Part shown: piece by piece, positions 8,142 to 42,805 of the stretch
Numbering within the stretch: position 1 is the stretch's first letter
Layout of the letters: every line of letters starts with the position of its first letter
The notes under the pieces: generated by a model
The model's input: the letters and a program-made list of their open reading frames with translations, nothing else
Told to the model about the DNA's origin: nothing
The model's database searches: none
Program-made: the position numbers and the translations under genes
NCBI GenBank assembly: GCA_024762655.1
Contig: JANTHB010000013.1
Coordinates: forward strand, 1-51,575
DNA length: 51,575 nucleotides
Source: Bacteroidales bacterium
GTDB lineage: Bacteria; Bacteroidota; Bacteroidia; Bacteroidales; VadinHA17
Direction of reading: 5' to 3'

Positions 8142-8259
8142 ACCATATAACGAGCCCCCTTTGGAGTACATGAAATCCGTACCTTTTGTGTTACGGATTT
8201 TTTTTCTTCTCCTGTTCATATTTTTTGTATCTTTTTCCATTCATAAAAGACAAAGTAGT

Positions 8260-9330
8260 ATGCGCTTCCGGAGGATTATGCTTATGTTTCTTGTCCTGGC
8301 TGCAGGTCTTTCTTCCTGTATCTCTCCCGGGGAGATCGTCGTGGATATCTATGAACCACCCCCGGTAAGGATACTGGATTCCATTGATACCATTCTGTTT
8401 GTGGCAAGATTCCCCTCCCTTGAATGGAAGACTTATCAGAATAAAAATAACCGTACTCAAATAGAGGGAGAAGCGTATTGGGTGCAGGCGACACAGCAGG
8501 CAATAGCTGGTTTTCAGGACAGGACGAAAGAAAAAGAATCACCGGTGACAGCCGGCATTGTCAACTGGGTTGATACCCTTAAATTTCACGGAGATCATTT
8601 CCCTCCCTCTCTTGACAGCAGCGCATTGGTCTTTCTATGTAAACCTCATAAGTGCCCCCGGGTATTGATATCGCTGGAATCTTTTTCTTATCAGACGAAA
8701 AAACGTTATTCGACATACAAACGTTATGTCCGGGAAAAACAAAACAAAATATGGTCAAAAACAAAACTTTACAATGTTCAGCCTGTCATTATGCAGCAAG
8801 TGCGTTTGACCGCTTATGCCAAAATAAGCTGGAGAATTTATGATTGTTTGGGAAAACAATCTATTTTTGAAAAACAATTAACCGACTCAGCCGTATATGA
8901 AATGGATGGTTCGACAAGAGAAGAGGTAGAAAGAAAACTTCCTTCCCCGGAGGTCGCAACGGATGATGCAGCTTATCTTGCCGGGAGAAGTTTTGCGGAG
9001 TACATCCTGCCATCCTACCGGACAGAAGTACGGCATTATTACGGAGGAGGAAACAGACTCTTGCATAAAACGAAAAAACAGGTAAAATTCAGACAGTGGA
9101 GCCTGGCACAAAAGTCATGGGAAGCTGCTCTGTCGGACCAAAATGTAAAGAGAAAAAACAAAGCCCGGCTCCTATATAATCTGGCTTTGGTAGAAGAAAT
9201 GAGAGGAAATCGCATGAAAGCACTGCATTTAATGGATGAAGCGGTCAGCCTGTTTCCCGGTGCGGGGATGATCCGCTACAGAAACCTGATAGAACAAGAG
9301 ACTAAAGAAACCTCTTTGACGGCCAGATGA
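8260..9330 (+). CDS. Lipoprotein with C-terminal TPR motif, tandem paralogue 1
   Basis: No function recognised. The start is placed at the ATG at 8260: from there a signal peptide with a lipobox (LSSC) follows at once, whereas the longer frame from 8161 would put a second hydrophobic stretch in front of it. The mature protein is a ~250-residue mixed domain followed by a TPR-like hairpin (KNKARLLYNLALVEEMRGN) at about residues 300-340. It shares its plan with the next gene: lipobox, a V-x-P-P motif shortly after the Cys, an A-x-L-A-G-x-x-x-A-x-x-I-x-P segment, then TPR. It resembles the Bacteroidota lipoproteins annotated as DUF6340, but I hold that assignment loosely. The two genes overlap by four bases. 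Confidence 0.75.
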   Translation: MRFRRIMLMFLVLAAGLSSCISPGEIVVDIYEPPPVRILDSIDTILFVARFPSLEWKTYQNKNNRTQIEGEAYWVQATQQAIAGFQDRTKEKESPVTAGIVNWVDTLKFHGDHFPPSLDSSALVFLCKPHKCPRVLISLESFSYQTKKRYSTYKRYVREKQNKIWSKTKLYNVQPVIMQQVRLTAYAKISWRIYDCLGKQSIFEKQLTDSAVYEMDGSTREEVERKLPSPEVATDDAAYLAGRSFAEYILPSYRTEVRHYYGGGNRLLHKTKKQVKFRQWSLAQKSWEAALSDQNVKRKNKARLLYNLALVEEMRGNRMKALHLMDEAVSLFPGAGMIRYRNLIEQETKETSLTAR

Positions 9331-10370
9331 AAAGAATTGCTTTTTTTATATTGATGTGCGGCATTTTCCTGATGATGCTGACCGGCTGTTACAGCACAAA
9401 AAAAATTACCATACAGGTATTGCATCCCCCTGATAGGATCGTCTTCAATACCCCCGAAAATCTGGTACTGATCAACCGGATGTTACGGGATACTTCCCTG
9501 CAGGATACCCTGCACTTCAATGACCTGAAGATGCCCTCAAAAATGTATAATGCCCTCCAATGGAAAGCGCTTTACGGATTTGCTGACGTTGCCTACGGCT
9601 CTCCCTGGGTGAAGAATGTGTTTTTTGATTCTGTCTTTGTGGATTCGGTTTCCATCAATCGCAAACCCGGTATAATATCCTTCCCGGAAAGGGAAAAGAT
9701 GTTTAAAAACGATAAGGCTACGATAGGAGTGGACCTGGCAATAATGATCTTTTCGGATTCAATATACCGCACGCATGAATTTGTGTATAGTGATAACCCG
9801 GAGGAGTTGGACGGAGCCTGGCTTACCGTTATCAACGTAGATCTCCTGGTAAAAGCCGATTGGTTTATCTACCAGGCAAACAACCCCCTGCCGATCGATA
9901 CCACGAACCATACGAATGTTCTTAATCTGAACGGTGCAGGACGTTCTTACCGCGAAGCATTTGCCAACCTTCCCAATGTCAGGGAGGCCATTGCAGACCT
10001 GGCATACCAGGCCGGACAACAACATGCCTATCATATCTTTCCCATCTGGGATGAAGTGTCCCGTATTTACTTTATCAATACTCTGGATCAGAAAATGAAG
10101 GAGGCGGAAGACCTGGCGAAAAAAAACCAGTGGATGGATGCCGCGGCAATATGGCGGGACATAACGCTCTCCAAAAATAAGAAAAAAGCTGCCTATGCAG
10201 CCTTTAATATGGCCCTGGCAAGCGAAATCAACGATAAACTGGATCTGGCCGAATCGTGGCTGAAACGATCCCTCGAACTGTATGGCAGCCCCGTCACCCG
10301 GAATTACCTGGATATCATACGTGAAAGGCTGAAGGATTATAAAAAAATGAATCTGAAGACTTCGGAATAA
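9327..10370 (+). CDS. Lipoprotein with C-terminal TPR motif, tandem paralogue 2
   Basis: Function unknown. The start ATG lies in an ATGA overlap with the stop of the preceding gene, indicating translational coupling. It has a signal peptide with lipobox (MLTGC), then a domain parallel to the neighbour, the segment IADLAYQAGQQHAYHIFPIW, and a C-terminal TPR pair around WMDAAAIWRDI and AAYAAFNMALASEI. Conserved order and tandem placement indicate an old duplication with strong divergence. The products are probably periplasmic or outer-membrane anchored and may work together. The next gene has its own promoter. Confidence 0.78.
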   Translation: MKRIAFFILMCGIFLMMLTGCYSTKKITIQVLHPPDRIVFNTPENLVLINRMLRDTSLQDTLHFNDLKMPSKMYNALQWKALYGFADVAYGSPWVKNVFFDSVFVDSVSINRKPGIISFPEREKMFKNDKATIGVDLAIMIFSDSIYRTHEFVYSDNPEELDGAWLTVINVDLLVKADWFIYQANNPLPIDTTNHTNVLNLNGAGRSYREAFANLPNVREAIADLAYQAGQQHAYHIFPIWDEVSRIYFINTLDQKMKEAEDLAKKNQWMDAAAIWRDITLSKNKKKAAYAAFNMALASEINDKLDLAESWLKRSLELYGSPVTRNYLDIIRERLKDYKKMNLKTSE

Positions 10371-17545: not shown

Positions 17546-18571
17546 ATGAAAACAAATGAGTACAAAAGCCGGCGTGATTTTCTGAAAAAAATCATCGCAT
17601 CTGCCGTTACGGCAGGATTGATATCTTACGTAAAACCTTCGGAATTACTGGCCGCTGTGGCTGCCGAAGGAAACCTGCCCCGCAGGCCTCTGGGGAAAAC
17701 AGGTCATATGGTGGGCATATACAGCCTGGGAGGACAGGCAACCATAGAAACCCCCGGTAAAGAAAAACTGGCCGAAGAAATCGTCAACAAAGCCATTGAC
17801 CTGGGCATTAACTATATTGATACTGCAGCCGCTTATGGCCGTGCCACCGGAACTTTAACCAGAAGCCAGGCGATGGGCACCAGTGAAAGAAATATCGGCA
17901 GGGTCATGAAATACAGACGTGAAGAAGTCTTTCTGGCTTCCAAAACACACGACCGAAGCTACGACGGTTCCATGCGCTTGTTGGAAAAAACCCTGAAAAA
18001 CTTACAGACAGACCACCTGGATCTGTGGCAGGTACACAACGTCAAAAAAAGGGAAAAGGATCAACTGGATAAATTCTTTGCTAAAGACGGGGTGATAAAA
18101 GCCATGGAAAAAGCAAAAGAAGAAAAAATGGTTCGCTTTATAGGATGCACCGGACACGAAGATCCCGATGTATTGAAGGACCTGATCAGCCGCTATTCAT
18201 TCGATAATATTCTGATGGCAATCAATGCGGCAGACAAGCAATATGATTCATTCATAGAGAAACTGCTGCCGGTTGCAGTGGAAAAGAAAATGGGAATCGT
18301 GGGTATGAAAATACCGGCCCGCGACCGGATATTTTCTCACGGAGGGATCCTTACCATGAAAGAAGCCATGGAATACGTAATGACCCTCCCTGTCAGTACC
18401 GTTATTGTAGGCATTGACAAAATCAGTGAACTGGAAGAAAATATCCGCATCGCCAGGGAATTCAGTCCATTGACGGCTGATGAAATGCTGGCCATTGAAA
18501 ATAAGGCCAAACCCTATTATAAAGACCTGATGTTTTACAAGGGTCTCTCTGATTGGCCCCCGGAATGGTAA
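17546..18571 (+). CDS. Aldo/keto reductase with Tat-type N-terminus
   Basis: 341 residues. The N-terminus SRRDFLKK (residues 8-15) followed by a mildly hydrophobic stretch resembles a twin-arginine signal, suggesting export of a folded, cofactor-loaded enzyme. The AKR barrel starts at RRPLGKTGHMVGIYSLGG. The catalytic tetrad is visible: Asp and Tyr in YIDTAAAYG, Lys in LASKTH and His in WQVHN. The substrate is unknown; exported AKR relatives in Bacteroidota are often linked to sugar metabolism. It overlaps the following CE15 esterase by seven bases, suggesting a joint role on oxidised or esterified plant sugars. Confidence 0.9.
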   Translation: MKTNEYKSRRDFLKKIIASAVTAGLISYVKPSELLAAVAAEGNLPRRPLGKTGHMVGIYSLGGQATIETPGKEKLAEEIVNKAIDLGINYIDTAAAYGRATGTLTRSQAMGTSERNIGRVMKYRREEVFLASKTHDRSYDGSMRLLEKTLKNLQTDHLDLWQVHNVKKREKDQLDKFFAKDGVIKAMEKAKEEKMVRFIGCTGHEDPDVLKDLISRYSFDNILMAINAADKQYDSFIEKLLPVAVEKKMGIVGMKIPARDRIFSHGGILTMKEAMEYVMTLPVSTVIVGIDKISELEENIRIAREFSPLTADEMLAIENKAKPYYKDLMFYKGLSDWPPEW

Positions 18572-19848
18572 AAACATTTTTCTATATACTATTTGGTGTG
18601 CTTCTTTTGTGGGGAGACAATTTACTTTTGGCTCAGCAGATAAACTATGACGAGTCAAAAGTTCCCGCATACACCTTGCCGGATCCTCTGGTAATGGAGA
18701 ATGGAGTAAAAGTGACTACACCGGCACAATGGTGGAAACAACGGAGATCCGCGATTCTGAAAATCTTCGATGAGAATGTTTATGGCAAGGTGCCGGGAAA
18801 ATTACAACACATCACGTTCCGGGTCCGTGAAATTTCCCGGAAGGCCCTGGACGGCCTGGCCATACGTAAACAGGTTACGGTCCTGTTCACAGGGAATGAC
18901 AGTGGCCCTAAAATGGACCTGCTGATCTATATCCCGAACAGTTCAAAAAAACCATTACCCGCTTTTCTGGGTCTGAATTTCTACGGGAACCAGACCGTTT
19001 GCAAAGATACGGGTATTTTCCTTTGCCGGTCATGGGTCAGGAACAACCCGGACTTCGGTATATATGACCACCGGGCGACGGGAGCCTCGCGGGGTGTCCG
19101 GGCCTCCCGCTGGCCGGTAAAAAAGATCCTTGCAAGTGGTTACGCACTGGTAACAGCCTGTTATAACGATATCGACCCCGATTTCGATGACGGTTTTCAG
19201 AACGGGGTGCAACCCCTGTTCTATAAACCGGGACAACAAAGGCCGGCTCCTGACGAATGGGGGGCTATAGCTGCCTGGGCCTGGGGACTTAGTCGCGCTC
19301 TGGATTACCTCGAAACAGACCCTGACATAGACGCCGGGCGTGTTGCGGTAATGGGGCACTCTCGCCTGGGGAAAACAGCACTGTGGGCAGCTGCCGAAGA
19401 TCAGCGCTTTGCCATGGCAATTTCAAATATGTCAGGATGCGGAGGGGCAGCTCTTTCACGCCGGCAATACGGAGAAACCGTTGAAAGAATCAATACTTCT
19501 TTCCCGCATTGGTTCTGTGCCAATTTCAAAATGTACAATGATCATGAAGATGCTCTGCCGGTTGACCAGCATGAGTTGATTGCCCTGATAGCGCCACGCC
19601 CCGTTTATATCACCGCAGCCGTTGAAGACCGGTGGGCCGACCCGAAAGGAATGTTTCTGGCTGCCCGGTACGCAACACCCGTTTACAGGCTCCTGGGAAA
19701 AACAGGGCTGCCGGATCATGCGGAAATGATTCCGGGAAAACCTGTCATGGGGACCATCGGCTTCCACATACGCCCCGGCATGCACGACGTTACATCTTAT
19801 GACTGGCAGCAATTCCTGCTTTTTGCCAATAAATTTCTGAAAAAATAA
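18565..19848 (+). CDS. Glucuronoyl esterase-type hydrolase, carbohydrate esterase family 15
   Basis: CE15 enzymes cleave esters between 4-O-methyl-glucuronic acid on xylan and lignin alcohols. The protein has a signal peptide (ending LLLAQQ) and an alpha/beta-hydrolase fold with nucleophile Ser266 in GHSRLGKTALWAAA. Family hallmarks follow: SGCGGAALSRR, SFPHWFC, LPVDQHELIALIAPRPVY and WADPKG, with the catalytic His in GFHIRPGMHD. The ATG at 18565 (overlap with the reductase stop) is preferred over the TTG at 18553. The product is periplasmic or secreted. With the reductase it forms a two-gene unit; no xylanase or SusCD pair is nearby. Confidence 0.9.
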   Translation: MVKTFFYILFGVLLLWGDNLLLAQQINYDESKVPAYTLPDPLVMENGVKVTTPAQWWKQRRSAILKIFDENVYGKVPGKLQHITFRVREISRKALDGLAIRKQVTVLFTGNDSGPKMDLLIYIPNSSKKPLPAFLGLNFYGNQTVCKDTGIFLCRSWVRNNPDFGIYDHRATGASRGVRASRWPVKKILASGYALVTACYNDIDPDFDDGFQNGVQPLFYKPGQQRPAPDEWGAIAAWAWGLSRALDYLETDPDIDAGRVAVMGHSRLGKTALWAAAEDQRFAMAISNMSGCGGAALSRRQYGETVERINTSFPHWFCANFKMYNDHEDALPVDQHELIALIAPRPVYITAAVEDRWADPKGMFLAARYATPVYRLLGKTGLPDHAEMIPGKPVMGTIGFHIRPGMHDVTSYDWQQFLLFANKFLKK

Positions 19849-32919: not shown

Positions 32920-33807
32920 ATGATCTTCAACATTCAACGGTTTTCCACCCATGACGGCGACGGCATCCGTACCCTGATCTTTTTCAAAGGATGCCCCTTG
33001 CATTGTCAGTGGTGCAGCAACCCCGAAGGGATCTCCTACGATCACACCATCCTGTACGATAAAAGGCTCTGCAGGGATCTCGGGGAATGTATGAAAACTG
33101 AAAGCCGAGCCATCCGCCGTATCAACGGACATGGCATCCGTATCGAACGCGGGCAGATCGCACATCCGGAGATCTTACGGGATGTATGCCCTTCCCGGGC
33201 CCTTACGGTCGTAGGAGAAGAGAAAAGCGTGGAAGATCTCCTTCAGGAGATAGAAAAAGACCGGCCTTTTTACCGCGATAACGGCGGGGTTACCCTCTCG
33301 GGCGGGGAGCCGCTGTCACAAACCGCCTTCCTGGTCCCCTTTCTGCGTGCGCTGAAGGAGAGAAAGATCCCGGTAAATGTAGAGACATCCCTGCATGTCA
33401 AATGGGAGAATATCGCTGCTGTCGTGGAAGGGATTAACACCTTCCTGGCCGACCTGAAACATACGGATACAAAGAAATTCAGGGCTTTTACCGGAGGCAA
33501 TGCCCGCATGGTAACGGATAACCTGAAAAAACTCGTTGCCGGAGGTGCCCGGGTTATCATACGCGTGCCGGTCATCCCCGGATTCAATCACACCCAAAAG
33601 GAGATGAACCACATCATAGATTACGTTGATTCGCTCGGCATAAAAGAGATGCACTTCCTCCCCTATCATACGCTGGGAATGGAAAAATACCGGATGATGA
33701 ATATCCCTTATCCCTATGAACCATACAAACCTGTCAGGGATGAAGAGGTTTATCCCTATGCAGAATATGCGCAAAAAAAAGGATTACGAACAAAGACCGG
33801 AGGTTGA
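32920..33807 (+). CDS. Glycyl radical enzyme activating enzyme (radical SAM)
   Basis: 295 residues. It generates the glycyl radical on its partner using SAM and an iron-sulfur cluster. The radical SAM triad is Cys25-x3-Cys29-x2-Cys32 (GCPLHCQWC), preceded by FSTHDGDGIRT and followed by SNPEG, typical of the PflA-type family; GGVTLSGGEPL is the SAM-binding segment. Between them, where dehydratase-type activases carry a ferredoxin-like insert with eight cysteines, only Cys51, Cys57 and Cys90 remain. The auxiliary clusters are thus reduced or absent. The stop is one base before the ATG of its presumed substrate enzyme. Confidence 0.93.
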   Translation: MIFNIQRFSTHDGDGIRTLIFFKGCPLHCQWCSNPEGISYDHTILYDKRLCRDLGECMKTESRAIRRINGHGIRIERGQIAHPEILRDVCPSRALTVVGEEKSVEDLLQEIEKDRPFYRDNGGVTLSGGEPLSQTAFLVPFLRALKERKIPVNVETSLHVKWENIAAVVEGINTFLADLKHTDTKKFRAFTGGNARMVTDNLKKLVAGGARVIIRVPVIPGFNHTQKEMNHIIDYVDSLGIKEMHFLPYHTLGMEKYRMMNIPYPYEPYKPVRDEEVYPYAEYAQKKGLRTKTGG

Positions 33808-33808
33808 T

Positions 33809-36223
33809 ATGAGAACGAAAACATATGTTGAAAAGATAACTCCGCGTATCGTACATTTACGTGAGAAGGTACTGAGCACCAAACCTTCGGTATGTACAGA
33901 GCGGGCACGTTTTTATACGGAGATATACCGGGAGCATGAGGACCAGCCGGTAATCATCCGGCGGGCGCTGGCGCTCGAAAAAACACTGAAAGAAATGACC
34001 ATCTTCATCGATGAGGGCGAACTGATCGTGGGCAATCACTCTTCGCAGCACCGCGCTGCACCCATCTTCCCCGAGTATGCGGTCGACTGGCTGCCCGAAG
34101 AGATGGACGATCTGGACAAGCGGCCGGGGGATGCTTTCTACATCACGGAACAGCATAAGAAAGAACTGCTTGAGATTGCACAGTGGTGGAAAGGCAAAGT
34201 ACTCTGGGACCGTGGCAGAGCCATGATGTCGCAGGAATTGCGGGACCTGCAGGATGCTGCTATCATCAAAGCCACCGGCAACCTCACCTCCGGCGACGGT
34301 CACATTGCGGTGGATTTCCCGAAGATCCTCTCTGCCGGCCTGGCCGGTTATCTGGAAGAGATCGGCTATTACTACAGCAAGGTAAACAGGACCAGCCGGG
34401 AAGGGGTAAAAAAAGACCTTTTTTACAATGCCTTGGCGATCGCCATCCGTGCTTTCCGCACCTTTATTCTGCGATACAGGGATCTGGCACGGGAGATGAG
34501 TGCAAAGGAGCCGGATCGCGGGAGAAAAAAAGAGTTACAGGTTATCGCTAAGAATTGTGGAGTCATTGCTGACGGTCCCCCGCAAAATTTTTACCAGGCC
34601 CTGCAGCTCACCTGGTTCGTACAACTGGTCCTGCAGATAGAGAGCAACGGCCATTCGGTCTCCCTGGGCCGCATGGACCAGTACCTCTACCCTTTCTATC
34701 ACAACGATATATTAACTGGAAAGATGACAGAGGAATCAGCTTCAGAATTACTTGAGAACACATGGATCAAGCTATTATCCATCAGCAAGATAAGACCCTG
34801 GTCACACACCCGTTTTTCTGCCGGTGGCCCCCTCTATCAGAATGTTACCATTGGCGGACAAACCACCGACGGCAAAGATGCCGTAAACGACCTGAGTTAT
34901 CTGATCCTTGACACGGTCGGAAAAATGAAGCTTACACAACCCAACCTTTCCGTAAGGTTTCACAAAAACATTAGCAATGATTTTATGATGGCCTGCATGC
35001 AGGTCATTGAAAAAGGCTTTGGAATGCCCTCTTTTAACAACGACGAGGTGGTCATTCCCGGACTTCTTAAGTTGGGGGTGGAGCCACAGGATGCCTGGGA
35101 CTATTCGGCCATCGGATGTATTGAAATTGCTGTGCCGGGAAAATGGGGCTACCGCTGTACGGGCATGAGTTTTCTGAACCTGATGCGCGTCTTCAATGCA
35201 GCACTGTATAATGGGTTGGACCGCAAATCGGGAAAGACCTTCCACAAAGGTACGGGACATTTCAGGGATTTCAGCTCTTACGACGACCTGTTCAGGGCCT
35301 GGCAGCACCAGATCAAATACTATACACAAAAGACCGTGGAAATTGATACCGCTGTGGATACAGCCCTGGAAGAGAATGCCCCGGATCTCCTGTGCTCCGC
35401 TTTTGTGGATAGCTGTATTGCCCGTGGAAAAACCATCAAGGAAGGAGGTTCCAAATATGACTTTATCTCAGGTCTGCAGGTGGGAATTGCCAACCTGGGC
35501 AACTCGCTGGCAGCCATAAAAAAACTGGTTTTTGAAGACCGGGTGATCACTAAAGAACAACTCCTTGCCGCTCTGGAGAGTGACTTTGAAGGAGAAGAAG
35601 GAGAAAAGATCAGGCAATTGTTGTTGAACTACGCCCCGAAATACGGGAACGACGATGATTATGTTGATCTTCTTTTAAGAGATGCTTACATGGAATTTAT
35701 CAACGAGCTGGAACAGTATCACACAACCCGGTACAACCGGGGTCCCATCGGTTGCAAATACTATGCAGGCACCTCCAGCATTTCGGCCAATGTACCCAGT
35801 GGCGCTGTTGTGCCTGCCACCCCCGACGGCCGGAAAGCAAATACCCCGGTGGCCGAAGGCAGCTCCCCCTCTTCCGGAACCGACTTGCAGGGCCCTACCT
35901 CCGTATTCAAATCGGTGGCAAAATTACCCACGGAAAAAATAATGGGCGGAGTTCTTCTGAACCAGAAACTTAGTCCGGCCACAATCCGGAAAGACCGGGA
36001 CAAACAAAAACTGATATCGATCATCCGTACTTTTTTTGAAGATCTGAAAGGATGGCACGTACAGTACAATATCGTCTCCCGGGAGATTCTCATCGCGGCG
36101 CAGAAAGAACCGGAAAAATACAGGGACCTGATCGTCAGGGTGGCCGGGTATTCTGCTTTCTTCACTACCTTATCCCCCGATACACAGGATGATATCATCG
36201 CGAGGACAGAGCATACACTTTAG
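33809..36223 (+). CDS. Glycyl radical enzyme, predicted eliminase/dehydratase type, substrate unknown
   Basis: 804 residues. The ATG at 33809 is preferred (one base after the activase stop, GGAGG at 33799-33803 as ribosome site) over an ATG at 33716 inside the activase gene. The C-terminal glycyl radical site is Gly780 in RVAGYSAFFTT. The active-site loop is GCIEI (Cys437, Glu439), the Cys-x-Glu arrangement of dehydratases and other eliminating or decarboxylating members. Pyruvate formate-lyase itself has Cys-Cys, so PFL activity is unlikely. No microcompartment shell genes are present. The neighbouring ROK kinase and DeoR regulator suggest a sugar, sugar acid or polyol-derived substrate. Confidence 0.9.
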   Translation: MRTKTYVEKITPRIVHLREKVLSTKPSVCTERARFYTEIYREHEDQPVIIRRALALEKTLKEMTIFIDEGELIVGNHSSQHRAAPIFPEYAVDWLPEEMDDLDKRPGDAFYITEQHKKELLEIAQWWKGKVLWDRGRAMMSQELRDLQDAAIIKATGNLTSGDGHIAVDFPKILSAGLAGYLEEIGYYYSKVNRTSREGVKKDLFYNALAIAIRAFRTFILRYRDLAREMSAKEPDRGRKKELQVIAKNCGVIADGPPQNFYQALQLTWFVQLVLQIESNGHSVSLGRMDQYLYPFYHNDILTGKMTEESASELLENTWIKLLSISKIRPWSHTRFSAGGPLYQNVTIGGQTTDGKDAVNDLSYLILDTVGKMKLTQPNLSVRFHKNISNDFMMACMQVIEKGFGMPSFNNDEVVIPGLLKLGVEPQDAWDYSAIGCIEIAVPGKWGYRCTGMSFLNLMRVFNAALYNGLDRKSGKTFHKGTGHFRDFSSYDDLFRAWQHQIKYYTQKTVEIDTAVDTALEENAPDLLCSAFVDSCIARGKTIKEGGSKYDFISGLQVGIANLGNSLAAIKKLVFEDRVITKEQLLAALESDFEGEEGEKIRQLLLNYAPKYGNDDDYVDLLLRDAYMEFINELEQYHTTRYNRGPIGCKYYAGTSSISANVPSGAVVPATPDGRKANTPVAEGSSPSSGTDLQGPTSVFKSVAKLPTEKIMGGVLLNQKLSPATIRKDRDKQKLISIIRTFFEDLKGWHVQYNIVSREILIAAQKEPEKYRDLIVRVAGYSAFFTTLSPDTQDDIIARTEHTL

Positions 36224-36252
36224 GAAGGCTGAGGCTAAGGCATAGGCTGAGG
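36222..36252 (+). repeat. Left hexamer array (GCTAAG-type) of the putative cassette
   Basis: Starting right after the glycyl radical enzyme stop: four units GCTGAG, GCTAAG, GCATAG, GCTGAG (36228-36251). It is the inverted counterpart of the array at 36696-36735. Confidence 0.7.
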
Positions 36253-36287
36253 AAACTTTCAGATTATAGTAATTCAGAATATTAAAA

Positions 36288-36659
36288 ATGTCTTACAAAG
36301 ATTTCAGAGATATGCCTGTATGGCAGAAAGCTTTTGAGTTATTGCTCAGGATATACGATGTAACCAAAGCTTATCCCAAAGAAGAAAAGTATGGCCTGGT
36401 TTCAGATATGCGCAGGGCAGCAAACTCAGTTACAAACAATATTTCAGAGGGTTTTGGAAGATATGAGAAACTGGATAAAACACGGTTTTATAAAATTTCG
36501 AGAGGTAGTTGTTATGAACTCATAAATCAGTGTCTGGCGTCACAGGCTTTGGGTTTCATTACAGAAAATGACAAAGATGAATTAATCAACGACTACCGTG
36601 ATGTAATAGGTGAATTAGATTCTATGATAAAAAGTATTGAAACTACGCTCAGGAAATAA
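36288..36659 (+). CDS. Four-helix bundle protein, 23S rRNA intervening-sequence (S23) family
   Basis: 123 residues, all helical, with the family pattern DLxVWQKAFEL near the N-terminus, VSDMRRAANSVTNNISEGFGR in the middle and SRGSCYELINQ after it. The family was first seen inside intervening sequences of 23S rRNA, is related to the accessory protein Avd of diversity-generating retroelements, and often stands alone in Bacteroidota; its function is not established. No rRNA or reverse transcriptase lies here. Inverted arrays of a GCTAAG-type hexamer flank it, and it separates the glycyl radical enzyme from the ROK kinase, so it looks like an insertion. Confidence 0.93.
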   Translation: MSYKDFRDMPVWQKAFELLLRIYDVTKAYPKEEKYGLVSDMRRAANSVTNNISEGFGRYEKLDKTRFYKISRGSCYELINQCLASQALGFITENDKDELINDYRDVIGELDSMIKSIETTLRK

Positions 36660-36695
36660 TAAATGAATCTTAACGAAAAATGTACTCATTCAAAT

Positions 36696-36735
36696 CCTTA
36701 ACCTTTACCTTAGCCTTAGCCTTAGCCTTAGCCTA
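36696..36735 (+). repeat. Right hexamer array (CCTTAG)n
   Basis: CCTTAA, CCTTTA, then four perfect CCTTAG units (36708-36731) and a partial CCTA. It is the reverse complement of the GCTAAG-type units on the left side. It ends 16 bases before the ROK kinase start. Confidence 0.85.
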
Positions 36736-36751
36736 AAAAAAACTCACACCG

Positions 36752-37711
36752 ATGGATAAAATTTTCTGTGGCATCGACATAGGCGGGACGAAATGTGCCG
36801 TAGCCCTGGTCAATGAAAAGGGAAAGATCCTCGACAAGATCCTTACCCGGGAACATACCGGCAAGAGCGAGGAGAGACTGGTGGTGCTCGTTGTCTCCCT
36901 CATCCGGCAGCTCCTGCGCCGCAATGAAATACAGGAATCCCGGCTTCCGGGCATCGGGATCGGATTTGCCGGCCATATCCGTTATCGCGACGGGGTGGTC
37001 ATCACCACCTCCAACCTGCACGGGTTTAAGAACTATCCGTTGAGAGATGCTTTTCAGCAACATTTCTCCATTCCGGTAATACTGGACAACGATACCAATG
37101 CACAGGCCTGGGGCGAACATCTTTTCGGAACGGGCCGGAGCATGGACGACATGGTCTTTCTCACCGTCAGCACAGGGATAGGCGCAGGCATTATTATCAA
37201 CAAGAAACTCTACCGGGGTGTTACCGGCACGGCCGGAGAGTTCGGCCATACCATTGTAGAACCCGAAAGCGATCTGGTATGTACCTGCGGAAACCGTGGT
37301 TGTCTTATGGCCGTAGCCAGCGGCCTGGCTCTTCCCTCCCTGTATAAAAAAAAGCTACAGGAAGGGAAGAAAAGCACCCTGTCCCTCCCACCTGATTTTG
37401 ATCTGTCCAAAATAGACGGTGTGATTTTGAAAAATGGCCTGGATACAGGAGACCCACTCTCACGGGAGATAATCCTGGACTGCGGTTATTATATGGGTGT
37501 AGGGATCTATAATATCTTTCAGGCACTCAATCCACCGCTTATCGTGCTGGGTGGCGGACTGACCAATTGGGGTGACCTCTACCTGGAGAAAATAAAGTCT
37601 ACTTTTTACGAACTGGCCCGGGATATGATCTTTGATCCCATAGAGATAAGAATTTCAACCATTCATGGCGATGCCGGCCTTATCGGTGCTGCCGCTTTGC
37701 CCCTCGAATAA
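36752..37711 (+). CDS. ROK-family sugar kinase
   Basis: 319 residues. ATP-dependent kinase fold: DIGGTK near the N-terminus (phosphate binding), catalytic Asp114 in LDNDTNAQAWGE, STGIGAGIII, and the ROK zinc motif His in GEFGHTIVE with CTCGNRGC. There is no N-terminal helix-turn-helix, so it is a kinase rather than a NagC-type repressor. It would phosphorylate a hexose or amino sugar; the sugar cannot be named. It is followed after three bases by a DeoR regulator and probably belonged to the upstream operon before the four-helix-bundle cassette came between. Confidence 0.92.
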   Translation: MDKIFCGIDIGGTKCAVALVNEKGKILDKILTREHTGKSEERLVVLVVSLIRQLLRRNEIQESRLPGIGIGFAGHIRYRDGVVITTSNLHGFKNYPLRDAFQQHFSIPVILDNDTNAQAWGEHLFGTGRSMDDMVFLTVSTGIGAGIIINKKLYRGVTGTAGEFGHTIVEPESDLVCTCGNRGCLMAVASGLALPSLYKKKLQEGKKSTLSLPPDFDLSKIDGVILKNGLDTGDPLSREIILDCGYYMGVGIYNIFQALNPPLIVLGGGLTNWGDLYLEKIKSTFYELARDMIFDPIEIRISTIHGDAGLIGAAALPLE

Positions 37712-37714
37712 ACG

Positions 37715-38461
37715 ATGCTGAACAAAAGACAAAATAAAATACTGCAGATCCTGGGCCGGAACAACCGCACCTCAGTGGCTGTCCTGGCCCGTATGCTGGA
37801 TGTCTCATCGGTCACCATACGCCAGGACCTTAATTTCCTGGAATCGGAAGGCCTTTTAAAAAGGGTTCATGGCGGAGCTGTATTAAGAGAAGCGGACGAT
37901 CTCTCCGACCGGTTGGGGGTTAACTACGAACAAAAACTAAAGATCGCCCGGAAGGTTGCTTCGTTTGTGGAAAACGGCGAAACGGTATTGATCGAGTCCG
38001 GATCGGTTAATGCACTCCTGGCGCGCGAGCTGGTAAAAAACTCAAAGGTCACCATCATCACGACCAATGTTTACATTGCCCGTCAGTTCAGGAAAGACGA
38101 AAACGCCGGGATCATCCTCCTGGGAGGAATCTACCAGCATAACAGCGAATCGCTGGTGGGAAAAATGACAAAGGCCTGTATCGACCAACTGAATATAGGA
38201 AAAGCATTCATCGGCATCGACGGCTATACCACCAAAACAGGTTTTACTTCCCGTGACCTCCTGCGGGCCGAGATCGCAAGCCATATTATCCAAAAAGCGC
38301 GGGAAGTATTTATTGTTTCCGACTCCAGCAAGTTTGGAAAAGAAGAATTGACCAATATCTGTTTTCCGCAAGATGTGCAGCACATAGCTACGGACATGGA
38401 TTTGCCGGCTGTTTACCAGGAAGAACTGACAAAGGCTGGCGTGGATTTAATGCTGGCCTAA
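37715..38461 (+). CDS. DeoR-family transcriptional regulator
   Basis: 248 residues. The N-terminal winged helix (residues 3-57: RQNKILQILGRNNRTSVAVLARMLDVSSVTIRQDL) carries the DeoR signature and ends LKRVHGGAV. The C-terminal DeoRC sensor domain has the sugar-phosphate-isomerase-like fold with ESGSVNALLA, LLGGIY and VSDSSKFGK. Such proteins usually repress a local operon and respond to a phosphorylated sugar. The likely effector is the product of the ROK kinase or a later intermediate, and the likely target the promoter at 32869-32900 (inference). Confidence 0.92.
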   Translation: MLNKRQNKILQILGRNNRTSVAVLARMLDVSSVTIRQDLNFLESEGLLKRVHGGAVLREADDLSDRLGVNYEQKLKIARKVASFVENGETVLIESGSVNALLARELVKNSKVTIITTNVYIARQFRKDENAGIILLGGIYQHNSESLVGKMTKACIDQLNIGKAFIGIDGYTTKTGFTSRDLLRAEIASHIIQKAREVFIVSDSSKFGKEELTNICFPQDVQHIATDMDLPAVYQEELTKAGVDLMLA

Positions 38462-38637: not shown

Positions 38638-40818
38638 TTGAAATTCATCGATCTAAACACATTAAACCGTTGGGTTGACAAGATCCTTGCCTATCCGGGC
38701 ATAACCCATGAAGAGCTTACCCTGAGGAAAGACTACTGGATGGGAGGAGTATTTGCCTTGTTGCTAATATCGGGGTTAACACTGGGATTCCGGATCACCT
38801 ATCCGGAGTTTAAAATACTGATCTCCTACGGCCTTTTCATGACTTTTATCTTCCTGTTATACCCTGTTGCAGGTTTGTTCGTTCACCGGAATCTTGACGG
38901 TATGATGTTCGTCAATCAGATGCTGATGATCATCGGCACCTTCTTTTTTATTTTGAAACTGGGAGGGGTAATACACTCCGGCGGGCTGATTTTTATAGGA
39001 CTTTTCGTCATATTGAATTCTCTCACTTTTCATAACAAAAAGAAGACCTTATGGTTATTCTCAGTATATATTGTTACACTGATTTTAGTCTGGTTGCTCG
39101 ATCCGCATTTGACCGTTGCGCCGGAGATGACCCACAGGGCAAATGTCTTCCTCTTCATCTTCAACCTGGTCTGGATATCTGCCATGACCCTCACTTTTAT
39201 CCTGAATCTCATCTCGCAACTTGCCACACTCGAACAAAAGGAAGCCAAACGTCTGAAGGAATGGGACAAGACCAAAACAAAACTCTATACCAACATTACC
39301 CACGAATTCAGAACGCCGCTGACCGTGATCCTCGGCATGACCGAACTGATCAGGAACAAACCGGATAAGTGGCTGCTGAAGGGAACCCGTAAAATTGACC
39401 ACAACGGAAGCATTCTCCTGAACCTGGTCAATCAGATGCTGGATCTTTCAAAACTGGAGGCCGGCGCTATGTCTGTCGGTAAGATACAGGGAGATATCAT
39501 CTCTTACCTGAAATATCTCATAGAATCATTTCATTCACTGGCGGAAAATAAAAATATCCGGCTCTGTTTCCGACCCCACACGGATCACCTGGTCATGGAT
39601 TGTGATCCTGAAAAACTGATGCAGATCATTTCCAACCTGATTACAAATGCCATAAAATACAGTAAACCGGGCGGTAAGGTGGAGATACTGACCTTACAAA
39701 CCGGAATAGAGGAACAAAGGTTCGAAATACAGGTCAGGGATCACGGTGTGGGTATACTGGCGGAACATCTCCCCCATATCTTTGACCGTTTTTACCGGGT
39801 CGAGTCTTCCAACAGATTTATTCCCGGGATGTCAGGTACCGGCCTGGGACTGGCCCTGACCCGTGAGATCATAAAACTGCTGGGCGGCACCATCAGCGTG
39901 GAAAGTATATTCGGGCAGGGAACAAAATTCACCGTATCTCTACCCGTTACCCATAATGCTCCCTTGATGGAACAACTTGCTTTAGCCGGACCGGAAAAGA
40001 GCTTCTCTGCCCTCTTCCCGGCTTATGACGATGAAAAAGAGATGGCTGCCGTACCAACAGAACAGACAGACAAGCCGCTGCTCCTGATCGTCGAGGACAG
40101 CCGGGACGTTGTTGATTACCTGACCGCCCTGCTGGAGCCGGAGTTCCGTATTCAGGTGGCTGTCAACGGCAGGGAAGGCCTGGAAAAAACATTGCAACTG
40201 GGACCCGATATCATTCTCAGCGACATTATGATGCCTGAAATGGACGGCATCGAACTGCTCGATAAGGTGAAGAATGATATGCGCACCAGCCATATCCCGG
40301 TGGTCATCCTGACTGCCAAAGCGGATATAGCTTCCCGGCTTGCAGGACTGGAAAGAGGAGCCGATGCCTATATTGCCAAACCCTTTCACAGGAAAGAACT
40401 GGTCATACAATTGAAAAAATTTGTCAGGCTGCGTGAAAAATTGCAGGAACGCTATGCCAATATCGGCCATCTGAAACCCTCAAAAGACAAAAGCTTCAGC
40501 CTGGAAGATTCATTCATCCAGAAGATTCGTGAATTCATGCTGAGAAATATCGAAGAGGAAGAGTTCAGTATTAAAAAATTGTGTCATGAGGTAGCGATGA
40601 GCCGCGCACAGTTGTACCGCAAATTCAAATCCCTTACCAACAAAACAATATCCGCATACTTCCAGTCGCTCAGGCTGCACAAAGCCAAAGAATACCTGAC
40701 CACCTCCGATATGAATGTGTCGGAAGTAGCTTCCCTGACCGGTTTTAAAAGCCAGGCCCATTTCAGCAGGGCCTTCACCCGCCTCTTCGGCATCAACCCA
40801 AGCAAGATCAAAGGTTGA
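38638..40818 (+). CDS. Hybrid two-component system protein (HTCS-like: TM sensor, kinase, receiver, AraC DNA-binding)
   Basis: 726 residues from a TTG start, the only start upstream of the first helix. Several hydrophobic segments (about residues 35-210, roughly six helices) replace the large periplasmic sensor of typical sugar-responding HTCS. Then come HisKA (His222 in THEFRTPLTVILGM), HATPase_c (GTGLGLAL), a receiver domain with Asp529 in SDIMMPEMDG, and a C-terminal AraC-type DNA-binding domain (MNVSEVASLTGFKSQAHFSRAFTRLFGINPSK). Sensing is probably within the membrane. A 21-bp-spaced direct repeat, the expected AraC-type binding site, lies 30 bases after its stop, in front of two lipoprotein genes. 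Confidence 0.93.
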   Translation: MKFIDLNTLNRWVDKILAYPGITHEELTLRKDYWMGGVFALLLISGLTLGFRITYPEFKILISYGLFMTFIFLLYPVAGLFVHRNLDGMMFVNQMLMIIGTFFFILKLGGVIHSGGLIFIGLFVILNSLTFHNKKKTLWLFSVYIVTLILVWLLDPHLTVAPEMTHRANVFLFIFNLVWISAMTLTFILNLISQLATLEQKEAKRLKEWDKTKTKLYTNITHEFRTPLTVILGMTELIRNKPDKWLLKGTRKIDHNGSILLNLVNQMLDLSKLEAGAMSVGKIQGDIISYLKYLIESFHSLAENKNIRLCFRPHTDHLVMDCDPEKLMQIISNLITNAIKYSKPGGKVEILTLQTGIEEQRFEIQVRDHGVGILAEHLPHIFDRFYRVESSNRFIPGMSGTGLGLALTREIIKLLGGTISVESIFGQGTKFTVSLPVTHNAPLMEQLALAGPEKSFSALFPAYDDEKEMAAVPTEQTDKPLLLIVEDSRDVVDYLTALLEPEFRIQVAVNGREGLEKTLQLGPDIILSDIMMPEMDGIELLDKVKNDMRTSHIPVVILTAKADIASRLAGLERGADAYIAKPFHRKELVIQLKKFVRLREKLQERYANIGHLKPSKDKSFSLEDSFIQKIREFMLRNIEEEEFSIKKLCHEVAMSRAQLYRKFKSLTNKTISAYFQSLRLHKAKEYLTTSDMNVSEVASLTGFKSQAHFSRAFTRLFGINPSKIKG

Positions 40819-40847
40819 CACACACTTTCCCTCTCCTTTCTTCCTGA

Positions 40848-40886
40848 TTTTGAGACGATCAGTCAAAATTTTGAGAGGGTGAGTCA
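40848..40886 (+). promoter_or_regulatory. 21-bp-spaced direct repeat, predicted HTCS binding site
   Basis: TTTTGAGACGATCAGTCA (40848-40865) and TTTTGAGAGGGTGAGTCA (40869-40886): 15 of 18 positions identical, offset 21 bases, two helical turns. This is the layout bound by two AraC-type domains. The perfect palindrome AGTCATATGACT (40882-40893) overlaps its right end. Confidence 0.65.
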
Positions 40887-40907
40887 TATGACTTTCATCC
40901 CCTTTCC

Positions 40908-40915
40908 TTAATTTG
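40908..40915 (+). promoter_or_regulatory. Weak -7 element after the direct repeat
   Basis: TTAATTTG, one mismatch to TAnnTTTG. The direct repeat ends 21 bases before it, exactly where a -33 box would be, so the regulator would contact polymerase. The leader to 41115 is about 195 bases with no other gene. Confidence 0.4.
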
Positions 40916-41114
40916 AAAGTGTTAAATCATCGAGGGTATTTTCAGTAAAATCTCATTATCATGTACACATGCATCTTAGAGCGGGATCCTGAAGATAAAC
41001 ATTAATCGGCAAAGGATCCTGTCAACTTCCGCGCCCGGGATGAGAAACCGGAAACGCCCTTAGTGACAAGTACAGATCACTAATTTATTAACAAACCTTA
41101 TGGAGGGAATTATT

Positions 41115-41762
41115 ATGAAACGTTTACTGATCATATTATTGGGAGTAACCCTGATCTTTTTTGGTTGCTCAAAAAATGACTTTGTTAATCCTGGTCTTGA
41201 CCAGAATGATCAAAACACTTTGAAAAAAGCGTTTGTAAAGACAGCATTTACAGGAAAAGAATTTCCTGTTGCAAATTTGGATCCTGGTGAAATATCTGTT
41301 CTTCCGAATGGTAAGACTCTGCAAATGGGAGCAAAAGTAAGATGGTTTGACGTTACAACTGCTCCCACGGCTTGCGGACTAACGGACTGGACCTTCAACG
41401 CATTGTGGGATGGTGAACCCATGGCATCCCCAGGAAAATACTGGGGCAAAGGCAGGATGATAGTGAAGACGATTACCCCTGCATACAGTCCGGAATTACC
41501 TGCTAGTATGTATACAATTGGGGATGATAGCCTTGGAATATGGGATATAACTTTCCATGGGCCCATTGTTGCTGTAAAAGATTCAGAAGGAAAACCGGCA
41601 CTTGAATTCACAGCTTACTCCACTGGTATAGGTGAATCAGGAGAAGTGAAGGGATTTGTTAGTCATATGGTGTATGTTTTCAATACATCGGTAGGATACT
41701 ATACAATCAATGGTTTTTATATTGTAAAACATGGTGGACACGGATGGCATGGACACAGGTAA
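41115..41762 (+). CDS. Small lipoprotein of unknown function, paralogue A
   Basis: 215 residues. The ATG at 41115 is preceded by a strong GGAGGG (41102-41107), rare in this window, which makes the upstream ATG at 41100 unlikely. It has a signal peptide with lipobox (IFFGC). The mature part is beta-rich: FTGKEFPVANLDPGEISVLPNG, KVRWFDV, GIWDITFHGP, and ends in a Gly/His-rich tail (HGGHGWHGH) that could bind metal. It aligns along its length with the lipoprotein at 41898. I know no family for it. Position after the HTCS gene and its predicted site suggests regulated expression at the cell envelope. Confidence 0.8.
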   Translation: MKRLLIILLGVTLIFFGCSKNDFVNPGLDQNDQNTLKKAFVKTAFTGKEFPVANLDPGEISVLPNGKTLQMGAKVRWFDVTTAPTACGLTDWTFNALWDGEPMASPGKYWGKGRMIVKTITPAYSPELPASMYTIGDDSLGIWDITFHGPIVAVKDSEGKPALEFTAYSTGIGESGEVKGFVSHMVYVFNTSVGYYTINGFYIVKHGGHGWHGHR

Positions 41763-41800
41763 CATGGAGCTTATTCCTCCCTCCTTTTTCTAAGGATGGA

Positions 41801-41856
41801 AGGTGAAAATGCCCGGTCTTTCTTCGGGAGCAGGGTAAGACCAGGTATTTTCACCT
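41801..41856 (+). terminator. Long hairpin between the two lipoprotein genes
   Basis: Two 20-base arms (41801-41820 and 41837-41856) pair with one G-T and one mismatch around a 16-base loop; GTTTTG and a later T-run follow. It may terminate, attenuate or protect the first transcript. Confidence 0.6.
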
Positions 41857-41897
41857 GTTTTGTATCCCTTTTTAATAACGCATAAAAACAAAAAACT

Positions 41898-42440
41898 ATG
41901 AAAAAATTAATTCTATTAATTCTGGGAGGTGCCCTTCTCTTATCCGGATGCTCAAAAGACAATTGTACAGTGCCCCAGGCAACCGATTTTTCCGGTACCT
42001 CCACGTGGGTCGCCGACGTCGATCCGGGGTCCTTGACAGTAATGAACGACGGCCGTATGCTGATCGAAGGCCAGATAGGCGAATGGTACGATTCTTCCGG
42101 CAACAAACTGGTTACCGGAAAATCCATCTGGACGGTCAACTGGATACTTCAGCCGGATTGGAGCAGCGCCAAGCTATGGGGCACGGCCGAAATATTTACA
42201 GGACTTGAATCCGGAGGTACTCCGGGAAATGCTGAAGGCGTATGGGAAATAACGTGGAACGGCACGTTGACCGAAGGTGTTTTCGATCCCGAAATACAGT
42301 TTCTCAGCCAGGGAAAAATACTGGTTACGGCCAATGGCAAAGGCAAGTCCGGCGTGGTGGAAGGCAAACTCGCTACCTGGACCTATACCATGGATATTTC
42401 AAAGGGATTTGTCTATAATCTCACCGGTTCCATGTACTGA
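41898..42440 (+). CDS. Small lipoprotein of unknown function, paralogue B
   Basis: 180 residues with lipobox LLSGC. Same arrangement as the preceding gene: FSGTSTWVADVDPGSLTVMNDG, IGEWYD, W-x-x-N-W followed by WSSAKLWGTAEI, GVWEITWNGTL, and a final strand pair (GVVEGKLATWTYTMD). It lacks the His-rich tail of its paralogue. The beta-strand-rich composition suggests a barrel or sandwich exposed in the periplasm or on the surface. No family recognised. It ends at a bidirectional terminator shared with the cold-shock gene. Confidence 0.8.
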   Translation: MKKLILLILGGALLLSGCSKDNCTVPQATDFSGTSTWVADVDPGSLTVMNDGRMLIEGQIGEWYDSSGNKLVTGKSIWTVNWILQPDWSSAKLWGTAEIFTGLESGGTPGNAEGVWEITWNGTLTEGVFDPEIQFLSQGKILVTANGKGKSGVVEGKLATWTYTMDISKGFVYNLTGSMY

Positions 42441-42472
42441 CCGGAGAAACTTTTCTTCCTCCCTTGTATAAC

Positions 42473-42501
42473 AAAAAAGCCCGGCAAAACCGGGCTTTTT
42501 A
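42473..42501. terminator. Bidirectional rho-independent terminator
   Basis: AAAAAAGCCCGG, loop CAAAA, CCGGGCTTTTT: a strong symmetrical hairpin between convergent genes. Confidence 0.92.
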
Positions 42502-42517
42502 CTGGGTGAAGTACTTT

Positions 42518-42709
42518 TTATGCTAAACGAACTTCAACGGCATTCATTCCTTTTCTGCCTTCTTTCAGTTCGAAAGTTACTTCGTCATCTTTGGTGATCT
42601 CATCCACCAAACCGGAAACATGTACAAAATAATCCGTTTCTGTTTCCGTGTCCATAATGAAACCATAACCTTTGGATTCATTAAAGAATTTTACTTTACC
42701 TGTCTTCAT
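42518..42709 (-). CDS. Cold-shock domain protein
   Basis: 63 residues from the ATG at 42709, just before KTGKVKFFNESKGYGF (RNP1); DYFVHVSGL is the RNP2 motif. A single OB-fold nucleic-acid chaperone that binds single-stranded RNA and DNA. The longer frame from 42742 adds a hydrophobic stretch unlike the family and crosses the promoter. The leader is short (about 25 bases), so there is no room for the long cold-sensing leader of E. coli cspA. Confidence 0.95.
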   Translation of the reverse strand: MKTGKVKFFNESKGYGFIMDTETETDYFVHVSGLVDEITKDDEVTFELKEGRKGMNAVEVRLA

Positions 42710-42739
42710 TGTAATAAAAATATAAATTAATAATGGCCA

Positions 42740-42747
42740 CAAAGGTA
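42740..42747 (-). promoter_or_regulatory. -7 element for the cold-shock gene
   Basis: The minus strand reads TACCTTTG, exact TAnnTTTG, 31 bases before the ATG. It lies nine bases from the -33 box of the divergent permease promoter. Confidence 0.5.
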
Positions 42748-42755
42748 ATCAAATA

Positions 42756-42786
42756 TTTGACAATGACCCCGAAAAAGTTATTTTTG
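42756..42786 (+). promoter_or_regulatory. Promoter of the GntP-type permease
   Basis: TTTG at 42756-42759, 19 bases, TATTTTTG at 42779-42786: both exact; the ATG follows 20 bases later. Confidence 0.7.
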
Positions 42787-42805
42787 TTCAAAATAATCGA
42801 CAAAT

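Follow-up and report, generated by a model that had tools for sequence, protein, structure and literature searches.

A hybrid two-component regulator with a membrane-buried sensor and a conserved paired site ahead of two lipoprotein genes in a Bacteroidales genome

The closest described systems are the AraC-type hybrid two-component systems (HTCS) of Bacteroides, in which a kinase, a receiver and an AraC-type helix-turn-helix (HTH) share one chain and the operators are direct repeats at an average distance of 21 bp beside the targets; in the accessible portion of their description (PMC3878776) all HTCS identified have an N-terminal periplasmic sensor. Here we analyze a 51,575-nt stretch of a 3.4 Mb Bacteroidales genome (assembly GCA_024762655.1, contig JANTHB010000013.1, labeled C13), referred to throughout as the window, which encodes an HTCS regulator (38638-40818, + strand) followed by a paired site and the genes of two lipoproteins, A and B. 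Judged by its sequence, the window regulator has what defines AraC-type HTCS broadly (the domains, the His and Asp, a ~21 bp direct repeat beside the targets), but not the periplasmic ligand-binding domain or the SusCD or glycosidase targets that mark polysaccharide HTCS strictly in that portion of PMC3878776; it has instead a six-helix membrane sensor without a Pfam family and secreted lipoproteins as putative targets, with no SusCD in the window. Because direct repeats averaging 21 bp are described there, the DNA logic of the HTCS repeat is already known, as is the type of switch; the six-helix sensor without a Pfam family and the barrel-like lipoprotein targets are a variety that we did not find described, the literature matches listed (from a coverage that leaves out most subscription papers) holding nothing on an HTCS with a membrane-only sensor, on its fixed promoter geometry or on secreted barrel-like lipoprotein targets.

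The HTCS, with its membrane-buried sensor, very probably turns on its two neighboring lipoproteins via the conserved paired site, and we consider it likely that it does so as a local one-protein phosphorelay switch, acting at that site and driving both genes. In the course of events that we envisage, the six-helix sensor would control the HTCS kinase; H222 would hand its phosphate on to the receiver at D529; two HTCS molecules would then bind next to each other through their AraC-type domains, on half-sites of the form TTTTGAGA-N5-AGTCA, 21 bp or two turns apart; and, since the proximal half-site lies at the place of the missing -33 box, the bound regulator would replace that box and recruit polymerase to the -7 element TTAATTTG, so beginning a transcript that would comprise a long leader and both lipoprotein genes.

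Paired site and promoter geometry

Thirty bases 3' of the HTCS stop, a direct repeat occupies 40848-40865 and 40869-40886, identical at 15 of 18 positions with a spacing of 21 bp; a repeat finder places it at 40847-40865 and 40868-40886 (84% over 19 nt, spacing 21). Across the 300 bp behind the HTCS, 21 is the sole best among offsets 10-40, and among 300 dinucleotide shuffles 1% gave an equal repeat score at any offset and none did so at offsets 20-22. At the 20-nt length of the site model the putative operator half-sites, both on the + strand, span 40848-40867 (TTTTGAGACGATCAGTCAAA) and 40869-40888 (TTTTGAGAGGGTGAGTCATA), the second 21 bp downstream of the first and at the place expected for a -33 box. 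The primary sigma factor of Bacteroidota, in the accessible portion of PMC7366714, has the consensus TAnnTTTG at -7 and TTTG around -33. A -7-like element, TTAATTTG, lies at 40908-40915 on the + strand, its TAATTT beginning 20 nt past the operator end; no TTTG is found at -33 of this promoter, where the proximal half-site covers the place. Scanned with a weight matrix derived from HTCS relatives, the whole 51.6-kb window has a single pair match, between the HTCS and the lipoprotein genes. A third half-site, TTTGAAAG...ATCA at 40912-40929, overlapping the -7 box, was dropped as out of register by eye, and no use was made of a scan for ordinary sigma-70 promoters, which gave 8 against 4.2 expected by chance. 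A sequence-only reading of this DNA had noted the repeat with its offset of 21 and its distance from the stop, as well as a weak -7 box with the repeat ending at the -33 place, all of which we recover at these coordinates; its statement that HTCS bind direct repeats about two turns apart agrees with the 21 bp average of PMC3878776, as far as that source is accessible.

The window-type site recurs in relatives (labels below denote genomes, G; fetched loci or sequence stretches, L; and contigs, C). A pattern of 26 specified bases, allowing at most 3 mismatches, matches four times in a family sample of 117 genomes (G000 and G005 once each, G021 twice), compared with one match, in G093, for the same pattern backwards. 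Orthologs of both lipoproteins with at least 59% identity along their full length occur in exactly these three genomes. The source genome has one match, the pattern being the only way in which distant targets were sought. In G021, which belongs to another genus, the site precedes the genes of both lipoproteins (60% and 77% identical), so that the conservation check named beforehand by the sequence-only reading was passed there; no HTCS lies within the 9 kb fetched around the pair, nor does that contig hold an HTCS match at E<=1e-120, and the site hence travels with its target. A second G021 copy precedes a secreted esterase, and in the frame that follows there is a type IX secretion tail. The HTCS matches that G021 has at E<=1e-120 fall on three contigs, C65 (with 74% over 429 residues), C166 and C28; on the corresponding stretches L062, L063 and L064, two HTCS paralogs break at residue 429, where the contigs end, and the third match starts at 404, probably a collapsed near-identical assembly segment. 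Other repeats were seen by eye near the G021 site. In G005, from the window's own genus and 85% complete, conservation stands for the site itself, which is present with one mismatch, and not for its linkage: site and lipoproteins are on different contigs, that of the lipoproteins starting a little way into the shared leader, and a different secreted-looking protein follows the site beside an HTCS remnant. The HTCS-lipoprotein pairing itself, which the same reading proposed to seek in related genomes, recurs in two other metagenome-assembled genomes, with two lipoprotein copies of the window type directly behind the HTCS in L099 and one copy ~3 kb behind it in L101. Its account of a regulator-site-lipoprotein module is, from these sequence comparisons, supported.

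More distant HTCS relatives carry paired sites of other letters and the same build behind the HTCS gene, with the consensus TTTTGGGACgCtcAGCAAAA per half. The in-clade relatives are 44-50% identical to the window HTCS and the outgroup 34-39%. In a matrix-free test of 20 in-clade loci, offset 21 alone scored best (of 10-40) in 9 and shared first place in 5, offset 20 being best in 2; the mean score peaked at 21 (12.95 of 17, the next being 10.45 at 20, and the outgroup 9.75 at 21). Among four outgroup loci, 21 tied with three other offsets in one and was not best in three. The weight matrix, trained on loci that it scores, places a pair no more than 330 bp behind the HTCS for 18 of the 20 in-clade genes and for none of the 4 outgroup genes; in L102 the pair lies ~490 bp behind the HTCS. 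Both sets of counts are given without L110, which has no downstream sequence, and L035, which is the same locus as L075; shuffles in the weight-matrix analysis were plain, not dinucleotide. Applied to both strands of 38 sequences that overlap in part (348,726 bases, including two repeats, L062 within L098 and L063 equal to L100), the matrix gave 37 pair matches in 21 sequences and none in the reversed control. Apart from those at the G021 and G005 sites, every match lay downstream of an HTCS and on its strand; an array with three or more copies yields more than one match.

The distance to the -7-like box is fixed as well: in 18 of 22 training sites and 5 of 6 untrained ones, TAAYTT (at least 5 of 6) begins exactly 20 nt past the site, and at any other offset it occurs in at most 2 of the 22. 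Where an array had more than two copies (L109, L115, L074), the last pair was taken. Six further stretches were fetched, two of which (L126, L127) were the already used L105 and L114. When the threshold was lowered to 18, three of the four new loci outside the training set had exactly one pair match, behind the HTCS match (scores 19.8, 26.7 and 39.6), and 0 in the control; in the fourth, the HTCS gene ends ~150 bp from the contig edge.

The membrane sensor and its possible signal

The regulator gene has a TTG start and encodes 726 aa, comprising the six-helix sensor (~24-204) followed by HisKA (213-276), HATPase (323-438), receiver (483-591) and AraC-type HTH (648-724) domains, all four above Pfam cut-offs and with no further domain type above cut-off in this open reading frame (ORF). 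H222 and D529, which by their motifs we take to be the phospho-acceptors, are invariant across 12 aligned sequences. The N-terminal 205 aa have no Pfam match at E<=1. An AlphaFold2 model of the sensor from 20 sequences is a helical bundle (mean predicted local distance difference test score, pLDDT, 84.2), whose six helices, residues 24-204, we read as membrane helices; the model consists of helices and short loops only, with no periplasmic ligand-binding domain. A conserved loop, LGG-xxx-SGGL, joins helices 3 and 4, with L108, G109, G110 and S114-L117 invariant in 12 full-length HTCS sequences and, L108 aside, in 20 sensor sequences. This sensor domain is found at E<=1e-15 in 17 of the 117 family genomes, 6 of 393 in an order sample and 1 of 395 in a phylum sample (the source genome itself), making the membrane-sensor HTCS clade rare; the named relatives are metagenome-assembled genomes mostly labeled Bacteroidales or Bacteroidetes, with one Chlorobiota (L099).

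The three best VIA structural matches to the sensor are the membrane domains of the adenylyl cyclase Rv1625c/Cya (7yzk, Z 10.4 over 175 aa, root-mean-square deviation (rmsd) 3.9), ImcA (8wcn, Z 8.9) and adenylyl cyclase AC9 (9u3s, Z 8.8), with designed and unrelated bundles from Z 7.6 down, and all of these top matches fall below the Z of 13 under which a match between helical bundles may reflect a common arrangement. Foldseek gives 7yzk a probability of 0.96 but an E of 0.61, its first match being TMEM45A at E 0.21. The predicted helix arrangement may resemble that of the cyclase and ImcA domains, and is similarly placed ahead of the signaling helix of an output domain, but identity is 10-12% and the window output is a kinase-AraC chain. 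In the accessible parts of the sources, Rv1625c is reported to be inhibited by C18 mono-unsaturated fatty acids via its membrane domain (PMC12505454), and the quorum receptor CqsS, likened to our sensor by analogy only, can stand in for that domain (PMC4821796). Because the best matches are membrane signaling domains, one of them responsive to fatty acids and exchangeable with CqsS, a hydrophobic or membrane-borne signal seems a reasonable, if unproven, proposal for the modeled sensor.

The most serious alternative leaves the regulator acting on its site and changes the signal, which would not be a lipid but a quinone redox carrier, a peptide or membrane strain, read by the LGG-xxx-SGGL loop. 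The invariance of that loop favors it, and RegB senses quinone through a membrane-domain loop, GGXXNPF; the loop here is not GGXXNPF, however, the sensor matches no Pfam family, and its three best structural matches are the cyclase and ImcA domains. We regard a non-lipid signal as a distinct possibility, somewhat short of an even chance.

Lipoproteins, leader and neighboring genes

Lipoprotein A (41115-41762, + strand; 215 aa) has the lipobox FFGC and the mature start CSKND; its start was chosen by alignment, and an in-frame ATG also occurs at 41100. Lipoprotein B (41898-42440, + strand; 180 aa) has LSGC and CSKDN, both lipoboxes being assigned by eye, and is predicted to be a beta-barrel of the allene-oxide-cyclase (AOC)/DUF3224 kind. 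The two are paralogs (27% identical, E 1e-14 in a single comparison) without a Pfam or NCBIfam family above cut-off; A has no Pfam match at E<=1, and B only the signal family LPAM_1, below cut-off. Among the 37 window ORFs of at least 100 aa, all of which were covered, there is no SusC, SusD or glycosidase family. On these three matters, a sensor of membrane helices only (as modeled), paralogous lipoproteins of no known family and the want of SusCD or glycosidase genes, the description in the sequence-only reading holds.

The model of lipoprotein B, built from 5 sequences, reached a best pLDDT of 83.9, the other four AlphaFold runs giving 55-68. Its best Foldseek match is 2q03 (E 1.2e-3), and VIA gives 2q03_B at Z 16.6 (129 aa, rmsd 2.5) and the DUF3224 protein 2ooj_A at Z 13.0 (124 aa), then Diels-Alderase, AOC and dirigent barrels at Z ~9-13.5 and outer-membrane and designed barrels at 8-10. 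The predicted fold is therefore like that of DUF3224, AOC and dirigent-type barrels, from which lipoprotein B differs in matching no family profile and in being predicted to be lipid-anchored. Function does not follow from a shared barrel fold. Such barrels commonly take small hydrophobic ligands, and from the modeled fold the lipoproteins may bind or handle a hydrophobic small molecule in the envelope. A likeness of B to Shiga-toxin B subunits (13.5-15.2 bits against curated cut-offs of 165-204.5, E 0.04-0.37) was treated as chance. The surface-export signal of Bacteroidota lipoproteins, in the accessible portion of PMC5080379, is C-X-K-(D/E)2 after the lipid-bearing Cys; CSKND and CSKDN carry one acid, and several relatives have CSKDD or CSKDE.

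Searches with the two lipoproteins gave any match in 7 and 6 of the 117 family genomes, those beyond the three named above being more distant and that in G073 weak. The order sample had matches in 16 of 393 genomes, full-length in the source genome, G354 and G364 and in two pieces in G123, the other 12 being weak (E 3.7e-5 to 9.9e-4) and partial. Behind 21 listed operators the first ORF of at least 50 aa was signal-peptide- or lipoprotein-like by eye in 15 cases, a regulator combining AraC-type HTH and tetratricopeptide repeats (AraC-TPR) in 4 (L106, L111, L112, L116) and something else in 2: a 121-aa membrane-like protein at the first site of L101, and a doubtful 67-aa frame before an AraC-TPR gene at the first site of L107. 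A 140-aa secreted family recurs in L106, L107 and L113; L113 also has a well-scoring paired site at 3513-3553, between two convergent genes and without the -7 register. AraC-TPR regulators, or their tails, adjoin similar lipoproteins or other secreted proteins in L058, L059, L060, L068, L069 and L071, and TGCAAC/TGCATC pairs 19-20 bp apart occur in 7 of 11 upstream regions examined. Lipoproteins of unlike bodies share an N-terminal stretch (e.g. CSKDD...LKKxKA) in L058, L064, L068, L071, L072, L109 and L128 (BLAST; by eye), which looks like one module for export or processing set ahead of differing cargo.

Between the -7-like element and lipoprotein A lies a leader of ~200 nt. Within it, a 34-nt hairpin element in the presumed 5' untranslated region (40988-41021, + strand; CCTGAAGATAAACATTAATCGGCAAAGGATCCTG) is identical at 30 of 34 positions in the L057 leader of G021 and present in both G005 contigs (L056, L080). 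The leader fold at 40980-41028 has a z of -3.93, and an Rfam search of 40700-42800 gave nothing at E<=0.1. In G005 the element also precedes an unrelated secreted-looking protein. A second hairpin, between the lipoprotein genes (41801-41856, + strand; -30.7 kcal/mol, z -5.24), has a similar G005 sequence by eye; it may be terminator-like or an mRNA-processing element and could set the ratio of the two lipoproteins.

Just upstream of the HTCS, 32920-38461 encodes a glycyl-radical enzyme, a radical-SAM protein that is probably its activating enzyme, a ROK kinase and a DeoR regulator; a GntP permease lies downstream of the module. Elsewhere in the window are two tandem DUF6340 proteins (8161-10367) and, 20 kb upstream, a glucuronyl-esterase-like protein (18553-19845).

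Weighing the proposed switch

Several observations weigh against the switch as proposed. Since the matrix was trained on the same loci, its counts are partly circular, and the independent part of the evidence is the matrix-free test together with the untrained sites; the six untrained sites in turn share their contigs with training sites or, for L102, with a training row. L108 has no paired site. In L099 and L101, which have the lipoproteins, 21 is not the best offset in the matrix-free test, and L099 is without the TAAYTT register. In L130, one of the three new loci with a pair match, the HTCS match ends at residue 605 and so leaves out the HTH, and the site lies within the tail of the open frame. 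The HTCS of G005 is a remnant before the operator (L080 2178-2378; the last 67 aa, 87% identical), and the -7 register there is lost, though site and lipoproteins persist, a module perhaps caught in decay. Homologous lipoproteins adjoin AraC-TPR regulators in G019 and G026, and probably also in G018 and G123, where the adjoining frames resemble the tail of one; no regulator was seen near the lipoprotein relatives of L118, nor near those of L117, which starts at a contig end. Given the G005 remnant and the other type of regulator in G019 and G026, the lipoproteins are not paired with this HTCS in every genome. Finally, the two genes are separated by a strong hairpin, and transcription of lipoprotein B may start from a promoter of its own.

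The site could instead be a repressor site or an autoregulatory element, and AraC-type proteins are able to repress. This we think improbable: in the loci scanned with the matrix, no pair match lies upstream of an HTCS gene, and a proximal half-site that ends 20 nt before the -7-like box, at a promoter lacking TTTG at -33, is placed as an activator's would be. Still less probable, to our minds very much so, is that the HTCS serves the neighboring glycyl-radical enzyme, ROK kinase, DeoR or GntP genes, with the lipoproteins as bystanders. Those genes do flank the module in the window, and in G005 the HTCS remnant has a DeoR-like frame (by eye) upstream of it and the lipoproteins have a GntP homolog nearby, but the sole window pair match sits between HTCS and lipoproteins, and in relatives the neighbors change while the site and secreted proteins stay. 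That the repeat arose by chance, or is a mobile repeat without function, we reject, other repeats near the G021 site notwithstanding, because its sequence, 21-bp step and -7 distance are kept between genera and across HTCS relatives with altered half-site letters.

A bolder extension of the one-protein switch appears to us rather unlikely: a six-helix sensor, equivalent in bacteria to the lipid-sensing membrane domains of adenylyl cyclases, would directly control envelope-anchored AOC-type barrels that bind, shuttle or cyclize the same hydrophobic compound. If true, such one-protein switches would form a family, giving a closed circuit of lipid sensing and lipid handling. In Bacteroidota, HTCS are known for sensing polysaccharides, and here is a clade with a membrane-only sensor and, putatively, secreted lipoprotein targets. 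Its operator and promoter geometry is so fixed that its regulon may be read from sequence, and one regulator, one site and one promoter would provide a simple reporter system for asking what six-helix membrane domains sense.

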